From IMG/VR virus record IMGVR_UViG_3300010883_000165, positions 1 through 35,334 of that record: a DNA stretch of 35,334 nt; one strand, given 5' to 3'. Each line of letters begins with the position of its first letter. Within the stretch, counting starts at the first letter, position 1. A program made the position numbers and the translations under genes. This DNA is from a virus. Shown here piece by piece: positions 3,005-25,186 of the stretch. Below the pieces are notes generated by a model. It did no database searches. It was given only the letters and a program-made list of their open reading frames with translations, and was not told where the DNA came from.

Positions 3005-4786
3005 ATGGCTGTTAAAATCGGAGCTCTATTTGGCACAGTGTCCTTGGACACAAAGCAACTTGACAAGGACATTAAGAGAGTCAGTGCCAAGTTGAAGAGC
3101 TTGGGTGCAGGCATGAAGAGTGTTGGGTCGGCAATGACAAGATCTATAACAGCTCCAGCTATTGCTGTTGGTGCTGTATCGCTGAAAGTGTTCTCAGACT
3201 TTGAGCATGAGATGAACAAGGTCAAAGCTGTCAGTGGAGCTACTGAGAGTGATTTTAACAAGCTTACAGATTCTGCAAAAGCGTTGGGTGCATCTACAAT
3301 CTTTACATCTCGTGAAGTTGCTGGACTGCAGTTGAACTTGTCAAAGTTGGGTTTTACTCCTAATGAGATTCTAAATTCAACTGAATCAATATTAGGTCTT
3401 GCACAAGCTACTGATTCAGAGCTTGGAGAAGCTGCAAGAGTTGTTGCAGGAACAATGCGAGGATTCGGGGTAGACACTCAAGAGGTTGGAAGAATTACAG
3501 ATGTTATGGCAAAGGCATTCTCAAGCTCTGCTCTAGACATTGACAAGTTTGATGTTAGCATGCGGACAATTGCACCACTCGCAAAAGAGTTTGGACTGAG
3601 CTTTGAAGAGACAGTTGCAATGATAGGAATCCTTGCGAACAATAGTGTGGATGCTTCTACTGCTGGCACATCTTTAAGAAATATCCTTTTAAAGTTAGCC
3701 AAAAAAGGAATGACCTTTTCAGAAGCAATGAACATGATTGCAGAGTCTACAAACAAACTGGTCACTGCACAAGATTTGTTTCAAGCAAGAGGATCATTGA
3801 CTGGCACAGTTCTTGCAACGCAAGCTGAACATGTGAAGACTCTTCAGGAAGGACTGGAAGGTTCAAATGGTGCTCTTGAAAGAATGGTGCAAATAATGAG
3901 TGGCGATACATTTACTGCAATGAAAATTTTCGGATCAAGAATCGAAGCAGTTGCTTTGATCATTGGAGAGATATTAGCTCCACACTTTGAAAAGCTTCTT
4001 GATTTTGTAGCTACCTTGGCAGAAAAGTTTTCTCTTCTAGATCCAAAGCTTCAAGCGAATATACTGATGTGGGTCGGCATAGTCGCTGTTGTTGGTCCAG
4101 TGCTTGTAGCCTTGGGAACATTCATTAGTATTATAGCACTTGCACTTCCTGCAGTTGCAAGCTTGGTTACAGCAATTGGATCTCTGATTGCTGCTTATGG
4201 AGGAATTGTCATAGGAGTCGCAGCACTCGCTGCAGGATTTGCCCTGCTCTTGCAGGATTGCATTGAGCTGGGAGAGTATCTTGGAGAAGAATTTTATAAT
4301 ATTTGGATAAAAGTTAAAGACTTTTTTGCAGATGGGTTTCCTGCTGCACTGAGAAAAACTTTTGATTTCATAAAATACTCCATGATTAGTGCCATTGATT
4401 CTTTGAGCAGAAAGCTTAATAGTCTTTGGAGTTGGTTCCAAACAGTATCAAGCAAGGTTACTTCCTTTGTTTCAAACTCAGCTGCAGGTATGGCAACATC
4501 AATGTTCGGTGGATTCAGAGCAGAAGGTGGTCCAGTCTCAGGAGGTTCAAGTTACATTGTTGGAGAGAATGGTCCAGAATTATTTAGCCCAAGTAGGTCT
4601 GGTCACATCACTTCCAATAATGAAATGTCAGGAGGTCAAAACATAACAATGAACTTTGCTGCAGGCACAGACATGAGCACAGTTGCAATGCTAAAGAATA
4701 TGAAAGGTCACATTGCTAAGATAGCAGTGGATGCAGTCAGTGATGATTACCTCAGAGGAGGACTAACTTATAAATCAATTTCCTAA
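3005..4786 (+). CDS. Tape measure protein
   Basis: 593 residues. The N-terminal helical region and residues ~60-260 match the TP901-type minor tail core (KAVSGATESDFNKLTDSAKA, then TTVA-like GFGVDTQEVGRITDVMAKAF and NNSVDASTAGTSLRNILLKL). Hydrophobic segments lie at about 350-415. Near 500-540 comes the tape-measure C-terminal signature GGPVSGGSSYIVGENGPELF. The protein sets tail length; at ~0.15 nm per residue this suggests a tail of roughly 90 nm, which supports siphovirus morphology. No peptidase or lysozyme domain seen. Start ATG is one base after the frameshift product's stop. Confidence 0.9.
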   Translation: MAVKIGALFGTVSLDTKQLDKDIKRVSAKLKSLGAGMKSVGSAMTRSITAPAIAVGAVSLKVFSDFEHEMNKVKAVSGATESDFNKLTDSAKALGASTIFTSREVAGLQLNLSKLGFTPNEILNSTESILGLAQATDSELGEAARVVAGTMRGFGVDTQEVGRITDVMAKAFSSSALDIDKFDVSMRTIAPLAKEFGLSFEETVAMIGILANNSVDASTAGTSLRNILLKLAKKGMTFSEAMNMIAESTNKLVTAQDLFQARGSLTGTVLATQAEHVKTLQEGLEGSNGALERMVQIMSGDTFTAMKIFGSRIEAVALIIGEILAPHFEKLLDFVATLAEKFSLLDPKLQANILMWVGIVAVVGPVLVALGTFISIIALALPAVASLVTAIGSLIAAYGGIVIGVAALAAGFALLLQDCIELGEYLGEEFYNIWIKVKDFFADGFPAALRKTFDFIKYSMISAIDSLSRKLNSLWSWFQTVSSKVTSFVSNSAAGMATSMFGGFRAEGGPVSGGSSYIVGENGPELFSPSRSGHITSNNEMSGGQNITMNFAAGTDMSTVAMLKNMKGHIAKIAVDAVSDDYLRGGLTYKSIS

Positions 4787-5376
4787 TGCCAACATACCCA
4801 TTAAATTTACCAACAGATCCTAGCCCAAAAAATGTTGATTGGGAGCAAGTCAGTCGTGTTTCATATTCTCGATCTCCACTGACAGGAAAGCAGAAAGCTT
4901 ATGCACACAGCGGTCAATGGTGGAGAGTGTCTTTTGATCTTCCACAAATGCAAGAGGCTAAGACTGCTGAGTGGACAGCCATGTTGCTAAGGTTGAATGG
5001 CAAGGAAGGGTATTTTAATTTCATCCCAACCGAAGACACTCCACAAGGAAATGTGGGTGGTACTGGTTCTGCTATTATCAGTGCAGTGTCAGGATATGAG
5101 GTTACTTTGAATACAGTTTTAAGCGGTGGGGGTCTTACTGCAGGAGATTGGGTTCAAATAGGAACAGGTCTTTATAGAGTTACAGCAAGGACATCGATAG
5201 CTACAGAGACCTATGAACTTTGGCCAAAGCCACGAGCTGGAATTGTGCTTGAAACTACTACTCTGAATTATGGCAATCCTAAAGGGATGTTCAGATTGGC
5301 TGAGGGATTTAGATGGGATGTCAATCTTGCTAAGACCACAGGCATTTCATTAGTTGCAGAAGAAGTTCTAATATAA
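4786..5376 (+). CDS. Distal tail / minor tail protein
   Basis: 196 residues directly after the tape measure, start overlapping its stop (TAATG). The segment SPLTGKQKAYAHSGQWW followed by a 'W...L..L.G..G.F' region (EWTAMLLRLNGKEGYFNF) is a recurrent pattern in marine siphophages for the protein between tape measure and tip. In that position Dit-like proteins join tail tube to tip. A central Gly-rich stretch resembles a short inserted beta domain. Function inferred from order and pattern; no enzymatic residues. Confidence 0.65.
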   Translation: MPTYPLNLPTDPSPKNVDWEQVSRVSYSRSPLTGKQKAYAHSGQWWRVSFDLPQMQEAKTAEWTAMLLRLNGKEGYFNFIPTEDTPQGNVGGTGSAIISAVSGYEVTLNTVLSGGGLTAGDWVQIGTGLYRVTARTSIATETYELWPKPRAGIVLETTTLNYGNPKGMFRLAEGFRWDVNLAKTTGISLVAEEVLI

Positions 5377-8192
5377 TGTCAAGAAACTTAAGCACAGAAA
5401 TCCAAGCGAAATTAGCAGAGCCTACATGCAGACCTGTTTACATGGTTTGTTTTGATTTCGTTGGCTGGAGCTTAAAAGAGTGCACAGGCAATCATTCTCA
5501 CTCTTACTATGGAGACACTTATGAGGCTGCAAGCTATACTCTAGAATTTCCAACAGTAACAGAGTCCATTGAGCTTTCTGCTGATTCAGTCACTTTCAGT
5601 TTGTCTGGATCTACTGAGTTGCCAATTAACCTTTCAGATGTATACAACTATCGAAACAGAGAGGTTGATATGTATATTGGATTTGAGGCTGCAGATGGAA
5701 CTATGCCAGACGCAAATGTATACAAATTGTTCTCAGGTCTGATGTCTGAAGTTGAGTTTGTTGAAGATGGAGAGAGTGACACATGGCAGGTTAAAGCTGA
5801 ATCAAAATTAGTTGATCTGCAAAATGAAAAGGTGGCAAGGTATACTCACCAGTCTCAGCTAAATCTACATGCAGGTGACAAAGGATTAGAGTTCGCAAGC
5901 ACTGCACAAGCAGGATTATTTTTAAGTAGGAATGAGACTCCAGACGAGCCATACACTAAAAAAATTATATATGGAACTGCTAAGGTTGAAGGATCAGTTG
6001 TCTTCATGGCAACAAGTGGATCAGGATCTAGGTATTTAAATCTTGTGGTTGCATTTGCAGGGCATGAGTGTGAATCGATCCAGCAAGTTTATTTAGATGA
6101 CAGACCTTTGCTTTCTTCTGGATCAGTGTCAGGAGAATTTTCGAACATAGTTGCTTACCAAGAAAGGCTTGGGACATCTACGCAGGCTTATGTGTCTCAG
6201 CTCGCCACAGAAGTTGGTACAAGTGTTTGGACTTCGGATCATCAACTTAAAGGAATCTGTTATTGCTATTTAAGAATTCTTTACAGTGAGGATCTGTTCG
6301 GCTCAAGTGCTCCAAAGATCTCTGCATTAATTGAAGGAAAAAAGCTTTATGATCCTAGGACTGGTGGAGAATATTTTAATGACAATCCTGCACTTGCAGC
6401 TAGAGACTATTTGTTGAATACTGTGTATGGATTCAGCAGTGGGTCGGCAAGAGTTGATGATACACTAATTACAGTCGCTGCAAATGATTGTGATTTGCTT
6501 GTTGATAAAAAAGATGGAACTCAAGAGAAGAGATACAGGATCAATGGATTCTTGTCTACAGATTCAAAAATTGGAGACAACTTAAAATTACTTTTAGCAT
6601 GTATGGCAGGGAAGGTTAGTTACCTTGGAGGAGAGTTCGCTGTCTATGCAGGGACATATGCACTATCATCTTTTGTTATAACTGAAGATGAAATGACAGC
6701 TCCACTAAACTTGACTAGCAACTCAGTCCGAAGTTCATACAATGGAGCAAGAGGCATTCACACATCACAAGATTTAGAGTGGAAGGAAGATGAGTTTCCA
6801 CCATATCAAGATTCTGCTGATCTAACTGAAGATGGGGTATCAAGATTCATAGATCTTCCTTTGCCTTTTACAAAGTCTGCTTCAGCTTGCCAACGCATTT
6901 CTAAGATAAAGGTTAAGAGAACTAGGTGTTCAAGAAAACTTTCCTTGCAAACAAGTCTTGCAGATCTTAACATTAGGGCAGGAGATGTTATCAGCATAAC
7001 ATCTGAGAAGACAGAAATTGATGGGGGTGTTTACGAAGTTCAAAGCATGTCAATTGCAAATGGTCTTGAGCCATACATAAGCATGGAACTATTTGAAACC
7101 AAAAGCAGTGTATATGATTGGGATGCTTCAACAGAGGAAACAGAGGTTGGCACAGCTCCATCAGTTTCAAACTCTGTGCTTGCTTGGTCATTGGCAAGGC
7201 TTGGATCTCCTACTGCATCTCCAGGAACTAGATCATATACAGTTGGATTCACTGTAACAGTTAGTCACAATGAATCTGGAGTCACCTGTCGTTACTCAAC
7301 TGATGGGAGTGAGCCTGATGAAGCAGATTCTTCAGTAGCAAATGGAGGCACAATTAACATCAGTGGTGCAACAATCAGTTTGAAGCTGAAATCATTTCAG
7401 AACTCAGGATCTCTTACTTCTGAAGTTGTGACTTACGAGTACACATACAATGCTCCAACAAATCTTGTGCCTTCACCTTTGCACAGATTTACTTTTTACT
7501 CTGGCTCTAGTCAGAGCGACTCTCATCCTTATGTTCAGTTTGCAGTTCCTACTCTTGGGGGCACAAATCTTTACAACACAAGGAATGGAGGATCTACTTA
7601 TTCTCTTTTGAAAAGCAACACTGCTGCAGGAACTTATTATACAGACACTACTCTGCTCACCACAAGCTGGACTCCATCAGAGTATAGAGCTTATGCAACT
7701 AAGGCAGGATACCTAGACTCCAATCCACGACAAGTTCCTAATCAATGCATTCCTCCACTGATGATGGGAGTGTACGAATATCAAAACAGCAGTGTAGCTT
7801 ATTTAGTGTGCTTGGTATTTGGTAGCAGTGCGACACTCTATATGAGATATAGATACAGAACAACTAATGGTCCAGGTGCTTGGAACAGTTGGAGTAACTA
7901 CTTCACTAATGGCACTGGCTGGAGTTGGGGCAGTGGGGTATACAACCAAGGTCAAGCTTGGCAAGGTACGCTAGCAAAATTGCTACACTCTAACTCTCGG
8001 TCTTATCAGTATGAAGCTTACATAGCACAATCTGGATTTAGCAACAGCATAGTTTCAGGGATTCAGAATGGCTCTAGTCCAACCAGTGGTAATGTTTACT
8101 ATGGCACAGATACTGGCACAAGCGTTTACAGCACTACTGGAACACAACCTTATCCGATTTCATATACAATCAAACCTTCTAACTGGAGATAG
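5376..8192 (+). CDS. Tail tip / hub protein with CHB_HEX_C-like C-terminal domain
   Basis: 938 residues, start overlapping the previous stop (TAATG). The N-terminus (about 1-160) resembles DUF2163-type tail-hub domains of siphophages and gene-transfer agents. The middle (to ~600) is the long beta-rich hub region seen in tip-attachment proteins. Around residues 608-690 lies a pattern like the chitobiase/hexosaminidase C-terminal or Fn3-associated domain, with CRYSTDGSEPDEADSS and a following SLKLKSF strand. The rest is Ser/Gly/Tyr/Trp-rich with repeated WNSWSNYF / TGWSWGSG-like segments, suggesting carbohydrate contact. It probably carries host recognition together with the fibre; receptor unknown. 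Confidence 0.75.
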   Translation: MSRNLSTEIQAKLAEPTCRPVYMVCFDFVGWSLKECTGNHSHSYYGDTYEAASYTLEFPTVTESIELSADSVTFSLSGSTELPINLSDVYNYRNREVDMYIGFEAADGTMPDANVYKLFSGLMSEVEFVEDGESDTWQVKAESKLVDLQNEKVARYTHQSQLNLHAGDKGLEFASTAQAGLFLSRNETPDEPYTKKIIYGTAKVEGSVVFMATSGSGSRYLNLVVAFAGHECESIQQVYLDDRPLLSSGSVSGEFSNIVAYQERLGTSTQAYVSQLATEVGTSVWTSDHQLKGICYCYLRILYSEDLFGSSAPKISALIEGKKLYDPRTGGEYFNDNPALAARDYLLNTVYGFSSGSARVDDTLITVAANDCDLLVDKKDGTQEKRYRINGFLSTDSKIGDNLKLLLACMAGKVSYLGGEFAVYAGTYALSSFVITEDEMTAPLNLTSNSVRSSYNGARGIHTSQDLEWKEDEFPPYQDSADLTEDGVSRFIDLPLPFTKSASACQRISKIKVKRTRCSRKLSLQTSLADLNIRAGDVISITSEKTEIDGGVYEVQSMSIANGLEPYISMELFETKSSVYDWDASTEETEVGTAPSVSNSVLAWSLARLGSPTASPGTRSYTVGFTVTVSHNESGVTCRYSTDGSEPDEADSSVANGGTINISGATISLKLKSFQNSGSLTSEVVTYEYTYNAPTNLVPSPLHRFTFYSGSSQSDSHPYVQFAVPTLGGTNLYNTRNGGSTYSLLKSNTAAGTYYTDTTLLTTSWTPSEYRAYATKAGYLDSNPRQVPNQCIPPLMMGVYEYQNSSVAYLVCLVFGSSATLYMRYRYRTTNGPGAWNSWSNYFTNGTGWSWGSGVYNQGQAWQGTLAKLLHSNSRSYQYEAYIAQSGFSNSIVSGIQNGSSPTSGNVYYGTDTGTSVYSTTGTQPYPISYTIKPSNWR

Positions 8193-11850: not shown

Positions 11851-12624
11851 CTATGCTGCAATTGTTTCTGTGTGGCCATCTAGGACACTTAGGAGGGATT
11901 GCGAGCGACGAGGAAGGCGAAGTGTGCCTCCACGATATACATTGGTGAATGCATTCTGTAGCGACCATAGGTCACGACTGCCAAACTCTTCGTGCTCTGG
12001 ATTGTGCCATTGGGTAATCACATCAGCCATTTGAGACTTGGTGCAAGCACCTGCACGGAATGATCTGACAATCAAGTCATGAGCAGTCTTGTCATCAAGA
12101 TCAAGAGCCTTGTAAGCTGTGATGCGATTGTCAGTAGTCTGCCAAGTGTCTTTGAGGAGCCCAATTGCTTGGCTCATGATTGTAGGAAGGTCACGCAGGA
12201 TATTAGTTGTGTGGCGTCGACCTAAAACAATCTCATTGTCAAAGATCAGATTGCTGCAAACGAATGGAGCATCACCAGCAGCAATGCCTGCACGAAACGC
12301 TTTGTCGTGTGAATTACGTAAGCACATCACTGTGCCAACTTCAGAGTCATGCTTGCGGCTAAGATTGTTACCACGCACTTGGAACATTCCGAAGTAGTGA
12401 TTGTCTTCACGAGCAAGAGCATGGTGCTCATTAACGATCTGCAGGTCTGAGTTTTTTACAGACTCACGGAAGTTTTCAACAAGGCAATCATGAGCAATTG
12501 GATGCCAGCGATTACTAGCCTCTGGAGTTGCTACATTTTTGATTACGTCGAAGTCAACTTCGTTCTCTCCACATATAGAAAGGTTGAGAGTTTTGTTAAC
12601 AGGATTGGATGTATTTATGTTCAT
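11851..12624 (-). CDS. DUF932 (phage/plasmid-like) protein
   Basis: 257 residues. The stretch MCLRNSHDKAFRAGIAAGDA followed by PFVCSNLIFDNEIVLGRRHT is the signature of the DUF932 / TIGR03299 family, widespread in phages and plasmids and of unknown biochemical role (anti-restriction links have been suggested for relatives). The segment between (HYFGMFQVRGN) also fits. It is preceded by promoter-like copy 4 and followed by a hairpin, so it probably forms a transcription unit of its own. Start at the ATG after an A/C-rich leader. Confidence 0.8.
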   Translation of the reverse strand: MNINTSNPVNKTLNLSICGENEVDFDVIKNVATPEASNRWHPIAHDCLVENFRESVKNSDLQIVNEHHALAREDNHYFGMFQVRGNNLSRKHDSEVGTVMCLRNSHDKAFRAGIAAGDAPFVCSNLIFDNEIVLGRRHTTNILRDLPTIMSQAIGLLKDTWQTTDNRITAYKALDLDDKTAHDLIVRSFRAGACTKSQMADVITQWHNPEHEEFGSRDLWSLQNAFTNVYRGGTLRLPRRSQSLLSVLDGHTETIAA

Positions 12625-13654: not shown

Positions 13655-16495
13655 CTAAACACACTTGAAGCGATCATTGTCAGTCAGCTTCAAAATTTTA
13701 TTCACAAATAATTGAGTCCAACCTTCTTTTTTGCTGGCTTTTACAAGATACCAATCTCCTGTTTTTCCTGTCTCAACTATTGGCTTGGCAAGAGTCATAT
13801 ACTTGTGTCTGTCTATTGAGGCTAAACTATTTCCTGTGTCGTCTTGCAATGACATGCCGAAGAACAATGTCTGACCATGCATAACTTTTCCTCCTCTTCG
13901 CTCTAGCAATACTGGCTCATTGTGATCACGCAAATTCTTATCCATCAACTTTCCTATGACTACAAATTCTCCTGAGTTAGTAATTGTTATGTCTGCAATC
14001 TCTGTTATCTTAGATGTGATATTATATTTGTGTGGCTCTGCTTTTATGTGTCCCCAAAGTTCTTTGCATTCCCAGATTGAATCCCAAGGAGTTGTTCCAG
14101 AAGTAAGCAGAGTTGTTTGTCTTTTGCTCATTGGCTCTCCAGTGCTACGTTTATCCATTATGCTTCTCGCCATCTTTTCACCAACACCTTTTATTCCTAT
14201 AAGACCACCAACAAGATTTCCATCTTGGACAGACCAGTTGGATAAACTTTTGTCAGCATCATACGGCTTGTAATTATATCCTTCTTTGCTCAACTCTCTT
14301 AATATTCTTATGCTCTGGTCTTCATCTTTTGCATTACGCAAACATGCTGCAGCAAACTCAAGTGGGTAGTGTGCTTTTAAAACCATGCACCAATAAGAGA
14401 TCAGTCCATAAGCAACTGCATGCGATCGATTGAATGCCCAAGATCCCATTGTATTAATCTTGTCCCATATCATTCTTGATGTGTCTTTGTCCAGTCCATT
14501 TTCAATTGCACCCAATTCAAACTTTTCATAGAAGTTGTCGAAGAATTCTTTGCCTAAACTCTTGCTCATTGCTTTACGCAATTTGCTTACATCACCCCAG
14601 CTTAATTTTCCTACACTTCGTGCCACTTGCATGACTTGCTCTTGATAAACAATGATCCCATAAGTTTTGTCTGTGTATTCTTTTACAAGAGGGTGCATTG
14701 GATTTGCTGGAGCACCATTCTTGCGTTTAATGTATTCTGTTGTGCCTCCAGAGATCAGTGGTCCAGGTCTGCCCAAAGCTGTGATGGCAGTAATGTCCTC
14801 AAATGATTCCACTTCTATCTGCTGGCAGATGTTCTGAAGAGCAGTTCCTTCAAATTGGAAGATGCCTGCAAAATACTTCTTATTGATAATGCTGAATGCT
14901 TCCTTATCATCTAGCTTCCAATTCTTTATCTGATCCCTTGTCATTCCTACTTGGTCTAAGACATCTTGTAGAACGCTCAGAGTCCTCAGCCCCAAAACAT
15001 CAATCTTCAGCATTCCTATGGCTTCTGAATTGTGCTTGTCAATCATAGCACAACCACTCTTTTCATCAACCGCACAGTAAAGATTTGTTGGCTTGGCAGT
15101 GACAATGATTCCTGCAGCATGAACACCTGTGTGTCTTGCGTGGTGCTCAATATCCGCTACCACCTTGAGTTCTGGATACTTATTAAGAGTTTCTTTGCCC
15201 ACATCAAGTTGTTGAAAAGTATCAAGCAAGCAGAATGCAGCTCGAGAGTCACCACCAGACCTTTCAATGATGGCTTCTTTAAGGTCAGAAACCTCCCACA
15301 TAGGGATGCTCAAAGCTTTGCTCACATCTGTGATTGCTGACTTGGCTTTGAACACACTTATAGTTCCTAGCTTACTCACACAATCAGAGCCATACTTCTT
15401 GCAGAGATATTTGTAAACCATTTCTCTCTTGGTGTCTTCAAAGTCAATATCAATATCAGGATAGTCCATTCGGTTGATGTCAATGAAGCGTTCGAACAAC
15501 AGGTCATATGGAATTGGATCAACATCGGTGATGCCTATCAAGTAGCAAACCAAGCTACCACAAGAACTGCCACGAGCTGGACCAACAAACATCTTTGTCT
15601 TTGCATACTTGATCAGATCTGCAACGACATAAAAGTAGTCTTCAAACTTCTTTTCCTCAATCAAATCCAATTCTCGTTTAAGTCTTGCTGCATAGACTTC
15701 ATCCTCCAAGTTCACACCTAATTCAATTGCACCTTGTTGGCACATTTGTGCAAGGGTTTGCCATGTTTCTGGCTTAACCATCTCAGCCACTGGGAATTCA
15801 AATCTGCACTCTTCAAAAACAGCTCTGGTTCTGTCTGGTATGTCAGCTAACTCATCACCAAAGAATTCAATCCAGTCTTCTGTGTTCATGATTGTAGCAG
15901 GGCTAGTTATCATGTTGTAATTGTTCATGCCAATAGTGACTTGGTGTGCTGGCAGATCTTTAATAGTAGGATAGTAGTTGTTTGAACATGCCAACAGCTT
16001 TGGTCTGTATAGCTCTACCATTCTATTCTTGTGCCAAGTATTGTTCTGAGTATCTAAAGCCACATAGAAGTTGTCTCTCGCCATGAAATCATCCGCATAG
16101 CTTTCATCCCAATAAGCTCCAAGCACCACAATCAAATTACTGCTAACAGATGACAATATGGAATAGTCAATTCTAGGAACATAATAAAACTTTTCAGTAG
16201 ACAAAGTTGTCAGCTCATAAAGCTCTCTGAGTCCTTCTTGATTCTTGGCAAAAAATCGAGTGTATGAAATTGGTTGCTTTGCTCTGTCATCACAGTTGGC
16301 TACAGTTGGCAACTCAACTCCCAACAGAGGGATCTTGTCATGCTCCTTGCAGGCTTTGATAAAGTCAAGGTGTCCCCAAGTGCTTGCTCTGTCACAGATC
16401 CCCACAATGTCTTCTTGGTTGGTTTTTAAGACATCCTCTAGCTTGCCAGTTGCAAGTCTGAATGAGTATTGAGTTCTGTTTGCAAAGTTTATCAT
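13655..16495 (-). CDS. dnaE: DNA polymerase III alpha subunit (DnaE-type)
   Basis: 946 residues, shorter than the ~1,160 of bacterial DnaE. C-family landmarks in order: GPARGSSCGSLVCY (305-318), PDIDIDFED (346-354, catalytic Asp pair), then ALGRPGPL, IIVYQEQVMQ, LRKAMSKS, WAFNRSHAVAYGLISYWC, and a helix-hairpin-helix GIKGVGEKM, followed by an OB-like C-terminal region. The N-terminal PHP region lacks the usual HxH metal motif (NRTQYSFRL in its place), so PHP nuclease activity is probably lost. A separate DEDDh exonuclease is encoded upstream, overlapping by 4 bp, and could supply proofreading. The polymerase likely replicates the phage genome, presumably with the host sliding clamp. Confidence 0.95.
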   Translation of the reverse strand: MINFANRTQYSFRLATGKLEDVLKTNQEDIVGICDRASTWGHLDFIKACKEHDKIPLLGVELPTVANCDDRAKQPISYTRFFAKNQEGLRELYELTTLSTEKFYYVPRIDYSILSSVSSNLIVVLGAYWDESYADDFMARDNFYVALDTQNNTWHKNRMVELYRPKLLACSNNYYPTIKDLPAHQVTIGMNNYNMITSPATIMNTEDWIEFFGDELADIPDRTRAVFEECRFEFPVAEMVKPETWQTLAQMCQQGAIELGVNLEDEVYAARLKRELDLIEEKKFEDYFYVVADLIKYAKTKMFVGPARGSSCGSLVCYLIGITDVDPIPYDLLFERFIDINRMDYPDIDIDFEDTKREMVYKYLCKKYGSDCVSKLGTISVFKAKSAITDVSKALSIPMWEVSDLKEAIIERSGGDSRAAFCLLDTFQQLDVGKETLNKYPELKVVADIEHHARHTGVHAAGIIVTAKPTNLYCAVDEKSGCAMIDKHNSEAIGMLKIDVLGLRTLSVLQDVLDQVGMTRDQIKNWKLDDKEAFSIINKKYFAGIFQFEGTALQNICQQIEVESFEDITAITALGRPGPLISGGTTEYIKRKNGAPANPMHPLVKEYTDKTYGIIVYQEQVMQVARSVGKLSWGDVSKLRKAMSKSLGKEFFDNFYEKFELGAIENGLDKDTSRMIWDKINTMGSWAFNRSHAVAYGLISYWCMVLKAHYPLEFAAACLRNAKDEDQSIRILRELSKEGYNYKPYDADKSLSNWSVQDGNLVGGLIGIKGVGEKMARSIMDKRSTGEPMSKRQTTLLTSGTTPWDSIWECKELWGHIKAEPHKYNITSKITEIADITITNSGEFVVIGKLMDKNLRDHNEPVLLERRGGKVMHGQTLFFGMSLQDDTGNSLASIDRHKYMTLAKPIVETGKTGDWYLVKASKKEGWTQLFVNKILKLTDNDRFKCV

Positions 16496-17037
16496 TTTAT
16501 ATCTATGTAATTATTTTCTATCATCCACACAGCACACTTTGTCAGTGCTTCAACATCATTGATCGCTCTGTGTGCACCTTCAAATTTCATACCACCAGTT
16601 GCGATCTCGTATAATCGTCCTTGGTTGAGTCTAACTCCTCTTAGGTGAAAGCTTTGCTCAATGGTGCAGATCAAATTCTTAGGCATTGGAAAGTCTTCCA
16701 CTTGGTTACGCTTCATCTCAATTTCAATCATGCTCTTATCAAATGACAAGTTGTGTGCAATGAGATTGGTTTCACCTTCAAAGAATGACTTGAGTTCGCC
16801 AATGCGTTCTGAAAATTTCTTTTCATCCTCAATCATCTTGTCTGTGATCTTTGTTATTTTAATTATCTCTGGTGCCAAAGGTCTGCTTGGATTAACTAAA
16901 AAGTGCAACCTATCAAGCTCTGCAAGTGTTTCATCACAAAGCTTGATGGCTGCAAATTCTATTACCTTTGGCTGATGCTTGATGTCAGAGGCAATTGCCT
17001 TAACAAGTCCAGTTGTCTCTGTATCAAATATAATCAT
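16492..17037 (-). CDS. DEDDh 3'-5' exonuclease (epsilon-like proofreading)
   Basis: 181 residues with all four DEDDh motifs: FDTETTG (D5, E7), HNLSFDKSMI (D100), and GAHRAINDVEAL (H156, D161). The family is the DnaQ/epsilon group of proofreading exonucleases. Its stop overlaps the dnaE start (ATGA-type), which strongly suggests polymerase and exonuclease are made together as a split replicase. Its own start touches the upstream gene's stop. A role in host DNA degradation or RNA turnover is less likely given this pairing. Confidence 0.9.
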   Translation of the reverse strand: MIIFDTETTGLVKAIASDIKHQPKVIEFAAIKLCDETLAELDRLHFLVNPSRPLAPEIIKITKITDKMIEDEKKFSERIGELKSFFEGETNLIAHNLSFDKSMIEIEMKRNQVEDFPMPKNLICTIEQSFHLRGVRLNQGRLYEIATGGMKFEGAHRAINDVEALTKCAVWMIENNYIDIK

Positions 17038-17336
17038 CAGTCTTTTTTTCTGAATGAATCTGTATACTCAACCATTGCACAGTAAACTCCTGCATCATGA
17101 ATTGAATCTTGGTGACCACCTTCTGGGAAGTTAGATGCATACCTAGTGATTTTAACAATCAGCAATTCAAACAAGTGCCAAGAATTAAAGTCCTCTTTGG
17201 TTTGCAGCTTTATACCATCTGGAAAAAGAGTGTTCATGATTACTCCAACTTTCATATAGTTGTCTTTGTAAACTGAATTCCTTTCCACATAAGTCTCTGC
17301 AGACTCTTTGAGTATTTCTTCAACGCTCTTACGCAT
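17037..17336 (-). CDS. DUF6378 family protein
   Basis: 99 residues with the layout of the phage DUF6378 family: an N-terminal helix with ERNSVYKDNYMKVG, a middle segment ending LLIVKITRYASN, and a closing HQDSIHDAGVYCAMVE helix. The conserved charged residues recall small phage proteins related to all-alpha NTP pyrophosphatase-like folds, but a catalytic role has not been established to my knowledge. It overlaps the VOC-like gene by 8 bp and abuts the exonuclease gene, within the nucleotide/replication operon. Confidence 0.7.
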   Translation of the reverse strand: MRKSVEEILKESAETYVERNSVYKDNYMKVGVIMNTLFPDGIKLQTKEDFNSWHLFELLIVKITRYASNFPEGGHQDSIHDAGVYCAMVEYTDSFRKKD

Positions 17337-17829
17337 CTTTCTCCAATCGTTGGATTAGCTTCAAGTCCCAACCAAGGTCATCAAGAGTATCAAACACACA
17401 GTAGTGATATTTGCGTCCATTGTTCTTGAGGAACTCATTTGTGTGATCAGTTGTAAACAGTTCCTGTGCAACTTTGATCTTATAAGTATCATACAAGAAC
17501 TTTTTCTCGCTGTCTATTTCTTCAACATGGAATCCTTTGTGAGATAAGAATGTCTTACTCAGATCTCTTCCTCTGACTCCATGCCAGTTGTCTCCTTGTT
17601 GATAGTTTAACAGCTCGAACTCATAGCCCATTTCATAATTGAATGCTAGGTTTCCTATTGATCCTCCAACAATCTCTTTGCCGAAGCACTCTCCTGTTGC
17701 AGTAACTTGATCACGCACCCACTCTTTAGTTCCTAGGATTGTGTTGTGGTTCTCTATTGCCAGACCAATGTTAGGGCAGTAGATTGCCACTTGATCTATT
17801 TTTCCGTATCTTACTTCTATGCTATTCAT
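17329..17829 (-). CDS. VOC-superfamily (glyoxalase/dioxygenase-like) protein
   Basis: 166 residues with the paired beta-alpha-beta-beta-beta layout of vicinal oxygen chelate proteins: IDQVAIYCPNIGLAIENH, then FNYEMGYEFELLNYQ, a second module starting FLSHKGFHVEEID, and a closing strand DDLGWDLKLIQRL. Candidate metal ligands by pattern are Q13, E72, H97 or H101, and D155. VOC enzymes open, isomerise or oxidise small molecules using a divalent metal; the substrate here is unknown. It sits between an SDR dehydrogenase (gap 4 bp) and DUF6378 (8-bp overlap). An inactive binding protein is an alternative. Confidence 0.6.
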   Translation of the reverse strand: MNSIEVRYGKIDQVAIYCPNIGLAIENHNTILGTKEWVRDQVTATGECFGKEIVGGSIGNLAFNYEMGYEFELLNYQQGDNWHGVRGRDLSKTFLSHKGFHVEEIDSEKKFLYDTYKIKVAQELFTTDHTNEFLKNNGRKYHYCVFDTLDDLGWDLKLIQRLEKDA

Positions 17830-17833
17830 TTTA

Positions 17834-18523
17834 TTATGCTCCGTATGGGATTATTGTTCCAGTTAAGTATTTGTGTCTCTGTTTAGTTGATAGCAGGAAT
17901 GCTAAGAACTCTGCCAAGCTGTCAGGATCAGTTTCTTCACCTGCCAGAAGTGCATTGAGCTGATATTCTTTTGCTTGCTCTGGTGTCCAGCCACGCACAG
18001 AAGGAACTCTGCTGTCAATGTAATCAGACATTCCAGTTCCAGATAGCTTGTTGGGTGAAATGCCGAACACTGTAATGCCATGTGCCTTTGATAATTCTCT
18101 GGCGAGCTGGAGTGTCATTATGTGAGCTGCACCTTTACTTGCATTGTAGGCAAGTGAGTTAGTCATTGGCATGTGAGAAGCATTAGAGACAATGTTCACA
18201 ATGAATCCTTTTGTGTCTTTAAGCTTCTGCAAGAAGTGCTTGGACATATTAAATATAGACTTCGCATTTGTGTCCATAACTAAATCCCAATCTTCTTCAG
18301 TAAACTTGTCCAAGTAATCAATGCGATTAACACCTGCGCAGTTTATGATGCCATGGACTTCTACTTTTACATCTAAAGAGAATTCATGAACAGATGTATA
18401 GTCAGTCAGATCGACTTCCCACTTGTCTGCTTTAATTACATTTGTATTCTCGTCCTTCCTTAAGTGTTCGCAAATGCTTTCACCTAATCCAGAATTCGAT
18501 CCTGTTACTATTATATTATTCAT
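17834..18523 (-). CDS. Short-chain dehydrogenase/reductase (SDR)
   Basis: 229 residues, a complete classical SDR: cofactor motif TGSNSGLG (7-14), an acidic residue after the second strand, NCAG (61-64), the catalytic Ser region IVSNASH (S113), YNASK (Y126, K130), and the post-Lys segment GISPNKLSGTGM. It reduces or oxidises a small alcohol/carbonyl with NAD(P); the substrate cannot be read from sequence. Overlaps the HAD phosphatase gene by 8 bp and is 4 bp from the VOC gene. SDRs are rare in small siphophages, so recruitment as an auxiliary metabolic gene is likely. Confidence 0.9.
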   Translation of the reverse strand: MNNIIVTGSNSGLGESICEHLRKDENTNVIKADKWEVDLTDYTSVHEFSLDVKVEVHGIINCAGVNRIDYLDKFTEEDWDLVMDTNAKSIFNMSKHFLQKLKDTKGFIVNIVSNASHMPMTNSLAYNASKGAAHIMTLQLARELSKAHGITVFGISPNKLSGTGMSDYIDSRVPSVRGWTPEQAKEYQLNALLAGEETDPDSLAEFLAFLLSTKQRHKYLTGTIIPYGA

Positions 18524-18923
18524 TTATTTTTCCTTTGTTTACGTTGATTGCTATGTCGTCATATATCTTTACACACCTTGTGTCCTTGACATTTGTTACC
18601 TCTAGTTTGACTCCAAACTTGATCCAGCTCCATGCAGTGATGTAATCAATAGACATGATTGAATTTAACCCTGTCTCATCTGAACACCTTGCTGTGAATA
18701 TTTTGACTCGTTTGCCGTCTAGCAAATCTCTTGCCATGCGTTCACAAACTAATGACTGGTCATCTCCTATGTGGTCAGCACCTAGCCAACCATCATAAGC
18801 AACAAGAGTTCTGTCTAGGTCGTAACCAACCCAACTGGTGTCCTCGTTGCCCATGTAACCTGTGATGTCATAGAGATCATTTGTGTGCTTTGCTATATAT
18901 ATTCTTGTTGTTGGCTTGCTCAC
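18516..18923 (-). CDS. HAD-superfamily phosphatase (phage nucleotide/polynucleotide type)
   Basis: 135 residues. Motif I is GYDLDRTL (D35, D37, T39), motif II VKIFTAR (T77), motif III VKDTRC (K113), motif IV KIYDDIAI (D122, D123). The block 'DLDRTLVAYDGWLGADHIG' matches the compact HAD phosphatases common in phages, related to polynucleotide-kinase 3'-phosphatases and nucleotidases. Likely dephosphorylates a nucleotide or an end. It overlaps ThyX by 4 bp and SDR by 8 bp, consistent with a nucleotide-metabolism role. Confidence 0.85.
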   Translation of the reverse strand: MSKPTTRIYIAKHTNDLYDITGYMGNEDTSWVGYDLDRTLVAYDGWLGADHIGDDQSLVCERMARDLLDGKRVKIFTARCSDETGLNSIMSIDYITAWSWIKFGVKLEVTNVKDTRCVKIYDDIAINVNKGKINE

Positions 18924-19648
18924 TTTTCACCCTTCCTAATTTTATCAATCGCTTTCCATCCACAGTAACGCTCTTCAGTTGAAAGCTTTCTTTTTTCACC
19001 TGTCTCGATTAGTTGCTCTAAAAGCTTTAGCCGATCCTGTCCTTTGGGTTGAATAAAATCTTCAGCCCATGGGTGAATCTTTATTACCTCTTCAAACATC
19101 CCTTCAAATACATCTCTGTATTCGTTCTGAGTCCTCTTGCCAGTTCTAGATCTGCCCATCTCAGCAATCGTTCTTAAGTTGAACTGAGCAATAATGTTGG
19201 TGCATATATTTGTTGGCAGAACTCCTCTGGCATCTTCTACTGCACAGCCCATGTCAATAAGATCATCATAGGTCTTCTGTATGGTGTCCATGCACTTGTC
19301 GTATGCTTCCTTGCAATTGACATTGTCCTCAATAGTTGGACCAGTTACATATTCAAACTTCTCCATGTTGAGAAGACGCATTGTCTGCTGGGCATAACTG
19401 CCTGTCCTAGTCCTAACAAACTGGTGAGTGAATGCTCTGCTAACTCCAGAGATCTCGAATGTGTAATTCACAAACTCCCAACTGCTTGGAATTGTGTTAG
19501 CCATGTAAGAAAGCTCTTCTTGCTTTTCTTCAATGGACATCTTCTTGATCTTGTCTCTAGTCTCATCTCCTTGAGTGAGCCTAGTGCTCTTAGTATAGAT
19601 CAGCTTATCAACTGCTCCATATGTATAATCTATTAATTTTACTTTCAT
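18920..19648 (-). CDS. thyX: Flavin-dependent thymidylate synthase-like protein (ThyX), variant motif
   Basis: 242 residues. ThyX landmarks: ISGVSRAFTHQFVRTRTGSY (68-87) and EDARGVLPTNICTNI ... QFNLRTIAEM (138-164), then a TQNEYRDV segment that corresponds to the usual AQ-EIR. The signature RHR-x7-S reads R79-T80-R81-x7-T89, so the central His and final Ser are both replaced by Thr. A C-terminal ~40-residue tail (KLSTEERYCGWKAIDKIRKG) is extra. The family methylates dUMP using FAD, NADPH and methylene-folate; whether this variant does the same is open. Overlaps the FAD oxidoreductase and HAD genes by 4 bp each. Confidence 0.85.
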   Translation of the reverse strand: MKVKLIDYTYGAVDKLIYTKSTRLTQGDETRDKIKKMSIEEKQEELSYMANTIPSSWEFVNYTFEISGVSRAFTHQFVRTRTGSYAQQTMRLLNMEKFEYVTGPTIEDNVNCKEAYDKCMDTIQKTYDDLIDMGCAVEDARGVLPTNICTNIIAQFNLRTIAEMGRSRTGKRTQNEYRDVFEGMFEEVIKIHPWAEDFIQPKGQDRLKLLEQLIETGEKRKLSTEERYCGWKAIDKIRKGEK

Positions 19649-20598
19649 TTTATTTTGGTTTTATGGTTGTGGTTGTAATGGCTAGTGCCAGAAAGCTTTT
19701 CTATCTTACGAACGTCATCAACTACTGCATCCATAAGCAGTGGTCTCCACGTTGCGAATCTCCCTAATGAGTAAACATTGTATTGCTGAGTCAAGTAATA
19801 AATAAACTCCTGCCTCTCATGCTCATCAATGCTGAGTATTTTCCCAAGTGGCTGTGTGTGAACTGTCTCCTCTTCTATTTCAATGTCTGTTGAATTTAGA
19901 CTGCAAATTGTGCTGAGGAAATTGTAGACCACTTGCCTAGATTTTTCAGTAACATCTACATCACACTCTATAATCAAGTCATCTCCGTGAATGCTTCCTC
20001 TGTACCAATGTGTATACAAAGAAGAATTGTAAATTGTCTGGTGCACTCTGCTCTTTGGCTTCTTCAGCTTACACCTAATAACAAAGATCGGCTTGGCACA
20101 TTCTCTAAATTTTATATCTGTCTTCCAGCCAACGATCTTCATCATCACAGGCATGGGCAATGTGCTTATAGTAAGATCACCATCATGCTTGCATCCTTCA
20201 ATGTTAGCCTTGCCAATGGTGACTCCATACTCCACTTCAATGCTGTTAGCCATCTGCTCAACAAAGTTGTTAGGTGCTAAATACCTTACGCAAGGATCCA
20301 GATTCCAAACACTCCTGTCTTCAATTGCACCAGTAGCTTTTAAACTATAATTATTTGCATCTTGAACTGATGGTTTTTCCTTGTAGCCATTGTGTGTATA
20401 CAATGACTTGTTCACCTTAATTTTTTGGAATGGTATGCCAGTGGCTTCACTAACACTTTGATTGCGGAATCTCAATACAGCTTTGTGCAAGTCTGGAAGC
20501 TCGTCTTTGGCTTCAAAAACTGTTGGGCATCTTCTCCGCATCATGTTTGCAGCAAGCAGACCTGCCATGCCTGCTCCTAATATATTTGTCTTTTGCAT
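19645..20598 (-). CDS. FAD-dependent oxidoreductase
   Basis: 317 residues. The N-terminus NILGAGMAGLLAANMM is a GxGxxG dinucleotide-binding fold (G8, G10, G13) followed by an acidic residue (FEAKDELP). The middle has DLTISTLPMPVM, the usual 'return to FAD' strand, and near the end GRFATWRPLLMDAVVDD, a typical C-terminal FAD contact. The overall layout resembles UDP-galactopyranose mutase-like or small flavoprotein oxidases rather than a two-domain disulfide reductase. First gene of the overlapping block that runs through thyX to dnaE, overlapping thyX by 4 bp. Substrate unknown; a role with ThyX (flavin or base chemistry) is inference. Confidence 0.75.
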   Translation of the reverse strand: MQKTNILGAGMAGLLAANMMRRRCPTVFEAKDELPDLHKAVLRFRNQSVSEATGIPFQKIKVNKSLYTHNGYKEKPSVQDANNYSLKATGAIEDRSVWNLDPCVRYLAPNNFVEQMANSIEVEYGVTIGKANIEGCKHDGDLTISTLPMPVMMKIVGWKTDIKFRECAKPIFVIRCKLKKPKSRVHQTIYNSSLYTHWYRGSIHGDDLIIECDVDVTEKSRQVVYNFLSTICSLNSTDIEIEEETVHTQPLGKILSIDEHERQEFIYYLTQQYNVYSLGRFATWRPLLMDAVVDDVRKIEKLSGTSHYNHNHKTKIK

Positions 20599-22694: not shown

Positions 22695-24807
22695 TCTCAA
22701 ATAGTTGATTTGTTTGCTCTACATCTTCATTTCCTAATCCGTCCTCATATGCAGTTGCGATTCTTTTCTTATCATCCTCATAGCTTTTCATCCAAGATTC
22801 TATGTTGCGTAATGCCCACAGTCTTTTGACACAGCCTGTTGATAGTGATATCTGTGCTGGGAACTGTATTGCTCCTAGGTCTTTAAGCTTCCTGCCTAGC
22901 CAATGATTTGTGACAGTCTTATTAAACCTTTTCTTAATGACTTCAGACAGATCGGTAACACTTATGATGTCGCACTTGAATGGCCAATCACCATGTTCAA
23001 ATCTGTCCTCGATGAATTCATCAATGGGCAATTTTGTAGCTGAGATAGCTATCTTTTTTCCTTGGGTCATTGGAGCATGACTTTGTGGATTAAACTTTTT
23101 CAAATCTCTATTAAGAAACCAATGCAAGATAGCAGAATAATTATTGCGAGTCCAATCCCAGAGCTTTTTATAATACATTGATGACTTTGGCTTAACATCT
23201 GAATAGATCATGCAATATCTTCGGTCATCTTTGTCCAATATAATGCTGTCGTCATAATTTGTGAATGCTATTAAGTTTGCCACATTCCTCATCTTATAAG
23301 TTGGCTTGTGCATCTCCCTAATTTGAACAATGCTTTGCGTGATTATAGGCTTCAGCTTATTCATCAATTCTAATCTGCCTCTTGCCATAAGCTCTTCAAT
23401 AATAATTAGGTGTGAAGACTTTAACCAACCAGTATAGATCTCGTGTATCTCATCATTGCTTGGCATTGATACGTTAGTCTCACCCAGCATGTTCATCAAG
23501 ATGTCTCCAATGTATGATTTGCCTGTGCCTTGGTGACCACGGATGATTAGCATCCATAGAATTTTGTGTCCTTTATTCTGCACATTGTATGCCAGATAAT
23601 CATAAACGATATTGCACTCAATTTCATTGGTGAACATGTATTCAAAATGATCTGTCAATGGTGTGACATCTCCTGCCAATGGCTTGATCTTGCTTGGTCT
23701 GTAAAGATTATAAGTCTCGTGCTCAGTTTGCTTATCTACATAAACAATTGGTTCTCTTGGGTCATAAGTTATTGATGGAAACTTTTTGAATTGTGGATTG
23801 CTGATTGCATCCTTAGCTGCAGTTCCACGCTCAACCAAGTGTGCATATTCATCGCTGTATTGCTCCTTGTCATATTCAAGCATGGACTCAACGTGATGGA
23901 ATCGCTTTGTGCTAATTGTATACACCCATCCTGTTGGTTGATTGGGCATTAACATCTCGTTACAAAAGGTCTCAGCTTCGGTGTCTGTAAGCTGTGTTAT
24001 TATGTCCTCATTGCCATCTGTTATTACATCATCAATGCCTTTGCCTGCAGCCATTGGCCAATGCTCAATAACTGGCACTGCTAATTGGTTGTCTCGAATG
24101 GCACAATACAGTTTTGCTAATGCTACCCCAACCTTGGACAGATCTTCTTCTGTTGGGTCACTAGCACCATCCTTGTTGATGTATGGGTTGGCTTTGTCCT
24201 TGTCTGCATCGAAGCACAGCAGAACTTTCTTTGGCTTCAATTCTTTGATTGCATCGATTGCCATACGCCAGCTTGAAACGCCAGAAATGCTAACTGTGTA
24301 TACTCCTGTGTATTGGGTAGCAATCTCTGCCTTAAATTCACCTTCGGTTATGCGTAAGGTGTCCGCTATGGCATTTTCAGCACCCCATGTGGGAAAGTGG
24401 TTGCAGATTGTTGCAGCTGTCCCATTAGGGTAATTTATATTCCCATCTTTGTTAGCCTTGGGATTGCTACTCAGCATTAGATACTTTGACTGTGGAGTGG
24501 TTGGTCGATCACTTCTAATTTTAAGACCTGCCAAGGTCTTGTCTAAATTACGAATCGGTATAATTATTCCTGCACAACCTGCCAGTGCCCACTTGTCATT
24601 GTTGCGATAGAATCCAGCAGTCATAGCGAGCTCAGAGACAGAGACTTTCTCCAGCAACTGCTCGACAATCACCTTGCGTCTAAAAGGCATCGTCTTGAAG
24701 CCAATCTGTTCTATTCCTTCTGCAGTAAATCCTCTGTGCATTAAGCTCGTCCTATGCTGGTCAGATAGCTCCAGCAATGATAACAATTCTTGGTAAACTT
24801 TATGCAT
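22681..24807 (-). CDS. TOPRIM primase fused to SF3-type helicase (DUF3854 / DUF5906 layout)
   Basis: 708 residues. The N-terminal half has a TOPRIM pattern: RITEGEFKAEIATQ (E155), KKVLLCFDADKDK (D200, D202), and AAGKGIDDVI (255-262), matching DUF3854 primases. The C-terminal half has Walker A RGHQGTGKS (423-431), Walker B LIIIEE (467-472), the asparagine sensor AFTNYDD and an arginine-finger-like DKDDRRYCM, as in DUF5906/D5-type helicases. No zinc finger is evident at the N-terminus. It probably primes and unwinds at the origin; such fusions can serve as the sole replicative helicase of small phages. Overlaps the lytic transglycosylase gene by 8 bp. Confidence 0.9.
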   Translation of the reverse strand: MHKVYQELLSLLELSDQHRTSLMHRGFTAEGIEQIGFKTMPFRRKVIVEQLLEKVSVSELAMTAGFYRNNDKWALAGCAGIIIPIRNLDKTLAGLKIRSDRPTTPQSKYLMLSSNPKANKDGNINYPNGTAATICNHFPTWGAENAIADTLRITEGEFKAEIATQYTGVYTVSISGVSSWRMAIDAIKELKPKKVLLCFDADKDKANPYINKDGASDPTEEDLSKVGVALAKLYCAIRDNQLAVPVIEHWPMAAGKGIDDVITDGNEDIITQLTDTEAETFCNEMLMPNQPTGWVYTISTKRFHHVESMLEYDKEQYSDEYAHLVERGTAAKDAISNPQFKKFPSITYDPREPIVYVDKQTEHETYNLYRPSKIKPLAGDVTPLTDHFEYMFTNEIECNIVYDYLAYNVQNKGHKILWMLIIRGHQGTGKSYIGDILMNMLGETNVSMPSNDEIHEIYTGWLKSSHLIIIEELMARGRLELMNKLKPIITQSIVQIREMHKPTYKMRNVANLIAFTNYDDSIILDKDDRRYCMIYSDVKPKSSMYYKKLWDWTRNNYSAILHWFLNRDLKKFNPQSHAPMTQGKKIAISATKLPIDEFIEDRFEHGDWPFKCDIISVTDLSEVIKKRFNKTVTNHWLGRKLKDLGAIQFPAQISLSTGCVKRLWALRNIESWMKSYEDDKKRIATAYEDGLGNEDVEQTNQLFENEPY

Positions 24808-25186
24808 CGTCAGACAGTGAGTTGATTAGGATTTCTTTGCGAACTTTTACCCAGTAAGATTCGGTTGCTGTCTTCTTGTAACCAATTGGTCCACCATTCC
24901 AGATCCGTGCATAAATTTCAGCATTAGGCTTATTGCCTGTTTCCTTTTCATATTGTCCACCCCAGAATTTCAAATACTTTTTGGCAATGTCGAATGACTT
25001 CTTTGTGACCAGTCTGTCTTGCGATCTGTAACTGGTTTTATAGATCCTATTTACGTCATCAATAACGCACATGTGAATTTGCATACAGCCCAATGCTGAA
25101 CCATTGTCTCCAATTGCATTTTCGTTTCCGTGAGACTCGACCATCATGATCGAAAAAAGAAGGGTGTAGAATTTTACAGTTATCAT
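24800..25186 (-). CDS. Lytic transglycosylase-like endolysin (SLT fold)
   Basis: 128 residues covering little more than the catalytic core: IMMVESHGNENAIGDNGSAL (E17, with the ES-x-GN and A-x-G-x-x-G-x-A-x-G pattern of SLT/goose-lysozyme-like transglycosylases), followed by GCMQIHMC, DIAKKYLKFWGG and IYARIWNGGPIGY. No signal peptide; a hydrophobic start (FYTLLFSIMM) is the first helix of the fold. It should cleave peptidoglycan for release or, less likely, entry. Unusually it lies in the early/replication arm, overlapping the primase-helicase gene by 8 bp, far from the membrane genes at 86-648. Confidence 0.8.
   Translation of the reverse strand: MITVKFYTLLFSIMMVESHGNENAIGDNGSALGCMQIHMCVIDDVNRIYKTSYRSQDRLVTKKSFDIAKKYLKFWGGQYEKETGNKPNAEIYARIWNGGPIGYKKTATESYWVKVRKEILINSLSDDA

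Follow-up and report, generated by a model that had tools for sequence, protein, structure and literature searches.

Introduction

Known phage pathways of thymidine hypermodification employ a ThyA-type hydroxymethylase of deoxyuridine monophosphate (dUMP), a hydroxymethyldeoxyuridine (hmdU) DNA kinase, and pyridoxal phosphate (PLP) or alpha-glutamyl enzymes. To our knowledge, all phage pyrimidine-modifying synthases known so far are relatives of ThyA. Here we describe an operon of the virus record IMGVR_UViG_3300010883_000165 in which a variant ThyX is encoded together with a flavin adenine dinucleotide (FAD) protein, further enzymes and a DNA polymerase. The whole stretch analysed, a record of 35,334 bases, is referred to below as the window, and positions are numbered over its full length. 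The operon probably encodes a pathway, derived from ThyX, to a modified pyrimidine deoxynucleotide, which would be fed to the phage's own polymerase and decorated by exchangeable tailoring enzymes. With the known thymidine pathways it shares the presumed purpose and the clustering of tailoring enzymes, but neither a ThyA-type hydroxymethylase nor an hmdU DNA kinase nor PLP/alpha-glutamyl enzymes were found among the window proteins scanned. This agrees with the original prediction, made from the sequence of the window, which had seen no kinase and proposed a different route.

A further point of comparison is the MetaGPA pairing of a C5-modifying nucleotide synthase with a carbamoyltransferase. 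PMC8670742 reports that a thymidylate-synthase homologue and a carbamoyltransferase experimentally make 5-carbamoyloxymethyl-deoxycytidine (dC), and that the validated carbamoyltransferase acts on hydroxymethyl-dC, not on hydroxymethyl-deoxyuridine (dU) or hydroxymethyl-dUTP. The MetaGPA synthase is ThyA-type (PF00303) and dCMP-directed, whereas the synthase of the module described here is ThyX-type and has a FAD partner; moreover, the window has SDR and VOC genes and not a carbamoyltransferase. For ThyX itself, it is reported that Arg78, Arg80, Ser88 and Arg90 of the Thermotoga enzyme contact dUMP (PMC3498832) and that Tyr91 is the proposed general acid (residue roles in PMC3498832 and PMC8316439).

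Gene Organization of the Module

Open reading frame (ORF) calls revealed eight minus-strand genes running from 20598 down to 13655, overlapping by 1–8 bases or lying 4 apart, in the following order:

FAD protein, 19645..20598, minus strand: core gene; phrog_4828 4.9e-66; predicted GR2-type fold nearest UDP-galactopyranose mutase
ThyX-family enzyme, 18920..19648, minus strand: core gene, motif RTRTGSYAQQTMRL; PF02511 1.1e-38; 4-bp overlap with the FAD gene
HAD-type phosphatase, 18516..18923, minus strand: core function; DxDxT and IFTAR motifs; GTG start; 4-bp overlap with the ThyX gene
SDR oxidoreductase, 17834..18523, minus strand: optional tailoring gene; PF00106 3.7e-31; 8-bp overlap with the HAD gene
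VOC-fold protein, 17329..17829, minus strand: optional, always with SDR; predicted fold; 4-bp gap to SDR
DUF6378-like small protein, 17037..17336, minus strand: core domain; phrog_4889 C-terminal part 3.4e-21; 8-bp overlap with the VOC gene
DnaQ-type proofreading exonuclease, 16492..17037, minus strand: PF00929 2.1e-26, phrog_192; 1-bp overlap
DnaE-type DNA polymerase III alpha, 13655..16495, minus strand: PF07733 7.7e-67, PF17657 8e-39, PHP 3.6e-10; 4-bp overlap

ORFs and profiles bear out both the coordinates and the labels of the nearly gap-free enzyme set that had been predicted to lead into DUF6378, exonuclease and polymerase. The wording "fused to the replication operon" is accurate in the sense of a single operon and not in that of a gene fusion.

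An Altered ThyX Enzyme

The window ThyX clearly matches its family, with 133.4 bits against PF02511 (cut-off 24.8) and 95.8 bits against TIGR02170 (cut-off 87.9). It is nevertheless a variant with an odd motif, as originally proposed: the canonical His79 is replaced by Thr, and Tyr91 by Leu. In an alignment of 71 module ThyX proteins, from which exact copies and pieces shorter than 200 residues had been removed, Arg78, Arg80 and Arg90 were conserved in 71/71 rows and position 88 was Ser or Thr in 66/71. Position 79 was Thr in 54 rows and His in 7, the histidine of the RHR motif being gone in 64/71, including the window protein. Tyr was found at position 91 in 0/71 rows, the residue there being Thr (31), Val (17), Ala (9), Met (6), Leu (4), Phe (3) or Ile (1).

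As a control we used 33 bacterial ThyX genes, the best 30 from matches in 33 of 200 genomes plus 3 others; L103/L104, located in two module-bearing contigs, were set aside (L-numbers are locus labels throughout). The motif was located in 31 of the 33 (L106/L108 and L107, without it, are uncounted), and both H79 and Y91 were present in 31/31. Four phage ThyX proteins with no FAD neighbour within the stretch read had RHR in 4/4 and Tyr in 3/4. The module enzymes thus share the family match and the dUMP-binding arginines with ThyX, but differ in these two residues and in their linkage to a UDP-galactopyranose mutase (UGM)-like FAD protein and a polymerase. This pattern suggests a changed chemistry, in which the substrate is still bound and methylene transfer lacks an important residue. 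The two deviating motif positions (RHR His and Tyr91) weaken the case for a thymidylate synthase by function; the reading that the enzyme acts on a pyrimidine nucleotide stands.

The same data bear on a simpler explanation, an ordinary supply of thymidylate (dTMP) by a divergent but normal ThyX, with HAD and DUF6378 tuning the deoxynucleotide pool, the FAD protein as a helper (e.g., supplying reduced flavin), and SDR and VOC as unrelated cargo. The ThyX scores above both the TIGR02170 and PF02511 cut-offs, the retained dUMP arginines, and the commonness of phage thymidylate synthases (531 records matched) all speak for it. We nevertheless consider this explanation unlikely: in the FAD-linked family Tyr91 is always and the histidine usually missing, whereas the 31 bacterial genes have both, and the four phage enzymes lacking a FAD neighbour keep RHR. 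In addition, a phosphatase of deoxynucleoside monophosphates (dNMPs) beside a dTMP maker would be counter-productive unless it acted on another nucleotide, and a carbamoyltransferase and other tailoring genes occupy the same slot in relatives.

Distribution of the Module and Its Core Genes

The spread of the module was measured in a tblastn survey of 50,697 phage records: 359 matched the FAD protein, 354 of these across 80% or more of its length, and matches to ThyX, SDR and VOC numbered 531, 166 and 54, respectively; megablast of the module region against phage records returned zero matches. The same gene order was found in the annotated phages Myosmarvirus TropicalSun, Aeromonas Gekk3-15, Xanthomonas Carpasina, Wifcevirus WFC and Pantoea Kyle. 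Since this order is identical in unrelated phages, the arrangement is far beyond chance. Pbunavirus LBL3, Vibrio VA-RY-3 and Rhizobium TM30 carry the FAD protein and ThyX, with SDR and VOC not nearby.

Conservation was counted in a sample of 80 viral loci, near-copies included, taken as the best-scoring among 513 relatives of the FAD protein on viral contigs; these loci were scanned with profiles built from annotated module phages. ThyX was present in 78/80, the two exceptions being loci of 2.3 and 2.0 kb, while DnaQ and DnaE were found in 69/80 and 62/80 of these FAD-selected loci. Further counts refer to the 69 loci that reach DnaQ; the other 11, at least some of which are short or end early, were excluded. 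ThyX occurred in 69/69, HAD in at least 59/69 (a lower bound, the profiles having missed at least one PNKP-type HAD, in L078) and the DUF6378-like domain in 64/69. SDR was found in 26/69 and VOC in 20/69, always accompanied by SDR. The recurring core therefore consists of the FAD protein, ThyX, HAD and the DUF6378-like protein; the pair of SDR and VOC is optional.

The idea of a nucleotide-modification system tied to replication genes is upheld. The five-enzyme set originally proposed, in contrast, narrows to FAD, ThyX and HAD (with the DUF6378-like protein), as SDR and VOC come and go (20/69). Variation independent of thyX and dnaE, which the original prediction had named as evidence against itself, was found for SDR and VOC but not for FAD.

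Three loci (L059, L046 and L062) read FAD, ThyX, DnaQ and DnaE with a different small protein at the HAD/DUF6378 position, and the profile scan detected neither HAD nor DUF6378 in them. In a genome scan, the FAD protein occurred at only 2 loci, both module-bearing and both on contigs of bacterial metagenome-assembled genomes. These contigs, L097 (Bacillota) and L098 (Rhodanobacteraceae), contain FAD, ThyX, HAD, DUF6378 and DnaQ, with SDR and VOC also in L098, and are probably phage contigs binned with bacteria.

The FAD Protein and Its HAD and DUF6378-like Partners

Sequence searches said little about the FAD protein. In Pfam it matched only PF13450 (0.035), phrog_4828 is itself labelled "unknown function", and public records mostly name the family "hypothetical protein", and in some cases galactopyranose mutase or polysaccharide deacetylase (the latter in NC_070966). 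A search of its profile against solved structures by sequence gave no credible match. GxGxxG is nevertheless present in 67/67 rows of the family, and the AlphaFold model (pLDDT 89.9) has a predicted GR2-type flavoenzyme fold. The 17 best structural alignments of the model were all UGMs, the first with Z 22.4 and 3.3 Å over 301 residues, followed by protoporphyrinogen oxidases near Z 20; the fold match was also seen with Foldseek. The protein differs from UGMs in its 12–14% identity, in the lack of a credible Pfam or PDB sequence match and in its length of only 317 residues; no match to a UGM family profile was obtained, and the likeness is one of fold only. A nucleotide-binding flavoenzyme fold would fit a dNMP substrate, although fold is not function.

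The window HAD has no Pfam match, and its L004 homologue matches HAD-SF-IIIA at 3.3e-5, below the model cut-off. The DxDxT motif reads DLDRT in the window and DLDGT or DFDGT in relatives; apart from the window and its near-copies, 7 records contain homologues. At this position most relatives have a HAD resembling the PNKP phosphatase, and HAD relatives match the deoxypyrimidine nucleotidase NT5C or PNKP phosphatase; the window HAD and the phosphatase fusion of L006 gave zero matches to solved structures. In several relatives, HAD and DUF6378 form a single protein. All five such fusions scanned terminate in a DUF6378-type region, PF19905 (DUF6378) being weakly matched in L007 (0.14). HAD_PNKP was above its cut-off in L006, L007 and L010 and below it in L003, and the L002 fusion matches only an acid-phosphatase HAD, weakly. 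A kinase reading of the relatives' "polynucleotide kinase/phosphorylase" was rejected, with the kinase profile found in 0/5 scanned. By its profile matches, this label (phrog_4889; NC_011165, NC_048195, NC_047962) is a misnomer for a phosphatase plus DUF6378.

The SDR–VOC Cassette and Other Tailoring Genes

SDR is probably active, because its catalytic Ser, Tyr and Lys are kept in 27/27 rows; in its TGxxxGxG motif the first and last Gly are present in 27/27 and the middle one in 22/27. VOC is weakly matched by sequence (PF13669 0.015, below cut-off), but the VOC fold is clear in its AlphaFold model (pLDDT 92.3). The nearest structure is 3gm5, a methylmalonyl-CoA epimerase (Z 16.6, 2.2 Å, 138 aligned residues; runner-up 12.3). 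Despite this predicted fold, identity is 20%, and inspection placed Gln at the first-strand His position and Lys at the last-strand Glu position, the two residues of VOC epimerases that we take to be metal ligands. Q13, E72, H97, H101 and K157 are invariant in the VOC alignments. An oxidoreductase role, as first suggested for VOC, is not evident, the predicted fold being epimerase-like.

On the FAD tree (a quick tree with several long branches, the label test covering 60 of its 67 rows, those extending to DnaQ), the SDR–VOC pair underwent at least 9 changes, 7 of them forced by well-supported branches. The pair sits between DUF6378 and DnaQ in L028/L029; in L023, L024 and L027, with flanks of ~75–84% DNA identity to L028, DUF6378 is directly followed by DnaQ. 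SDR–VOC is thus a clean cassette.

Other genes occupy the interval between FAD and DnaQ in other loci. These are a carbamoyltransferase in L043 (PF02543 1.4e-53, PF16861 1.3e-42), with members of the same cluster in L053 and L055; a methyltransferase in L042, L043, L063 and L070, homologous to that of the actinophages Troll4 and ParvusTarda (blastp down to 4e-27); and a GT-A glycosyltransferase-like protein with an Asp-rich motif in L037, L042, L071 and L072. The latter adjoins DnaQ at L037:13250-14218, L042:12317-13243 and L071:3858-4754. None of the carbamoyltransferase, methyltransferase or glycosyltransferase-like genes was found in the SDR+VOC loci of the sample. A core with exchangeable decorators is the typical look of DNA hypermodification loci, and the module shares it, with its putative nucleotide-modifying enzyme and variable decorators located beside replication genes.

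A gene resembling a pyrimidine-dimer DNA glycosylase (PF03013) lies inside the module in a 15-locus cluster (e.g., L057:10804-11352, 2.1e-9), and gp54 of phage Ajin, adjoining its module, matches PF03013 weakly (0.0058). The PF03013-like protein may recognise or repair a modified base.

Counterparts in Actinophages

In Microbacterium phage Ajin, DnaE is preceded by a FAD oxidoreductase, an NT5C-like phosphatase (0.0021, below cut-off), SDR, VOC and a DUF6378 gene, and followed by a glycosyltransferase. A reading of Ajin as devoid of ThyX was rejected: its ThyX is gp71, away from the module and not adjoining the other module genes. In AnnaSerena, FAD is followed by ThyX at the same place, and a comparison of these related genomes shows ThyX after FAD in AnnaSerena (L092) versus phosphatase-SDR-VOC-DUF6378 at that spot in Ajin (L008). 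Mycobacterium phage Troll4 has FAD, an NT5C nucleotidase (1.5e-7, above cut-off), methyltransferase, SDR, DnaE and ThyX, and ParvusTarda is another actinophage with the same functions beside DnaE. The actinophage FAD family joins the module FAD family in hhalign (94.4% probability, E 9.3e-8). Since the actinophage loci match and the FAD families join, the same gene set has been retained next to the polymerase in two phage groups that are very distantly related.

These observations can be set against the view that the core makes a modified nucleotide and that SDR and VOC are a separate, parked cassette for small-molecule, cofactor or detoxification metabolism. Their presence in 20/69 loci with at least 9 gains or losses would suit such a cassette, as would the breadth of the SDR superfamily, which includes pteridine reductases. 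However, the pair lies within the operon between core and polymerase genes, adjoins the same partners in Ajin, and never occurs together with other decorators in this sample, so that we regard the parked-cassette view as quite improbable.

Other Genes of the Window

A tape-measure gene lies at 3005-4786 and a J-like tail-fibre gene at 5376-8192 of the window; its virus is therefore a tailed phage, probably a siphovirus. A DUF932 protein (11851-12624, minus strand; PF06067 1.6e-9) is encoded between helicase and DnaE. Upstream of the primase in the replication cluster, a small ORF (24800-25186, minus strand) looks by inspection like a lysozyme or transglycosylase and has no PHROG match.

Proposed Pathway and Its Significance

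Read from the observed gene order, conservation, division into core and optional genes and motif changes, and from the predicted folds, the pathway might run as follows. The ThyX-derived enzyme would bind dUMP (or dCMP) together with flavin/folate and, lacking Tyr91 and usually the motif His, would leave a functionalised one-carbon group at C5 (e.g., hydroxymethyl) in place of a finished methyl. The UGM-like FAD enzyme would act next on the nucleotide, by oxidation or by rearrangement of a flavin adduct. The HAD phosphatase would remove the competing canonical monophosphate, DUF6378 would assist, and the co-transcribed DnaE and DnaQ would incorporate the modified nucleotide. SDR and VOC would add a further step, an alcohol/carbonyl interconversion and then an epimerisation or rearrangement; in other phages, a carbamoyltransferase, methyltransferase or glycosyltransferase-like protein would take their place. 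The modification would probably shield the genome from bacterial defences. The substrate, the individual reactions, the occurrence of the base in virion DNA and the protection against restriction are all inferred in this way.

Several observations weigh against this pathway. The window ThyX still scores above the NCBI thymidylate-synthase cut-off. Since the solved ThyX chains 3ge9 and 3fnn and the ThyX of Corynebacterium phage C3PO have Phe at position 91, the canonical state there is an aromatic residue, not strictly Tyr. Six of the seven module loci that keep His79 carry tailoring genes (L003, L068, L043, L053, L042 and L071); because of this, the loss of His is a tendency and not required for the system, the loss of Tyr91 being the constant feature. 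No kinase was found that could serve an unusual dNMP, and the single glycosyltransferase-like copy scanned (L037) had no Pfam or PHROG match. The carbamoyltransferase parallel does not point to uracil either: because the validated enzyme is inactive on hydroxymethyl-dUTP, the target of the module may be either cytosine or uracil. Finally, PMC11990801 describes Wifcevirus as very sensitive to EcoP1_I, which does not suit a blanket shield.

The same paper reports that E. coli Wifcevirus phages of the BASEL collection resist nearly all tested restriction systems without a known means of protection. All four Wifcevirus phages Bas98–101 carry the FAD and SDR genes, with ThyX matched in Bas98 and VOC in Bas99, and Wifcevirus WFC has the whole module. 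A modified base would explain this resistance. The resistance also bears on the proposal that the product is a nucleotide-derived small molecule or nucleotide-pool weapon (a signal quencher or defence decoy) and not a DNA base. In favour of such a product, the base in DNA is a prediction, and the UGM-like fold could suit nucleotide-diphosphate substrates. Yet the tight, conserved linkage to DnaQ (69/80) and DnaE (62/80) and the broad restriction resistance of Wifcevirus make it very improbable.

In the literature we recognised no paper describing this module, which is not proof of absence. Pbunavirus phages are described as some of the P. aeruginosa phages used most often in personalised therapy (PMC11990801), and the genus is linked to a preprint on nucleases targeting hypermodified phage genomes (PMC12390725). 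A modified base of Pbunavirus may already be described in the preprint of Yee et al.

Returning to the ThyX-derived pathway, we tentatively propose a new class of phage DNA hypermodification, possibly built from a repurposed ThyX and a compact UGM-like flavoenzyme with swappable cassettes, in several hundred sequenced phages, including Pbunavirus and Wifcevirus. If true, DNA chemistry would gain a new route, one that starts from ThyX and has a second flavoenzyme dedicated to it. For the BASEL Wifcevirus phages, the module offers a named candidate to account for their unexplained restriction resistance, and this reading predicts a modified base in Pbunavirus phages.

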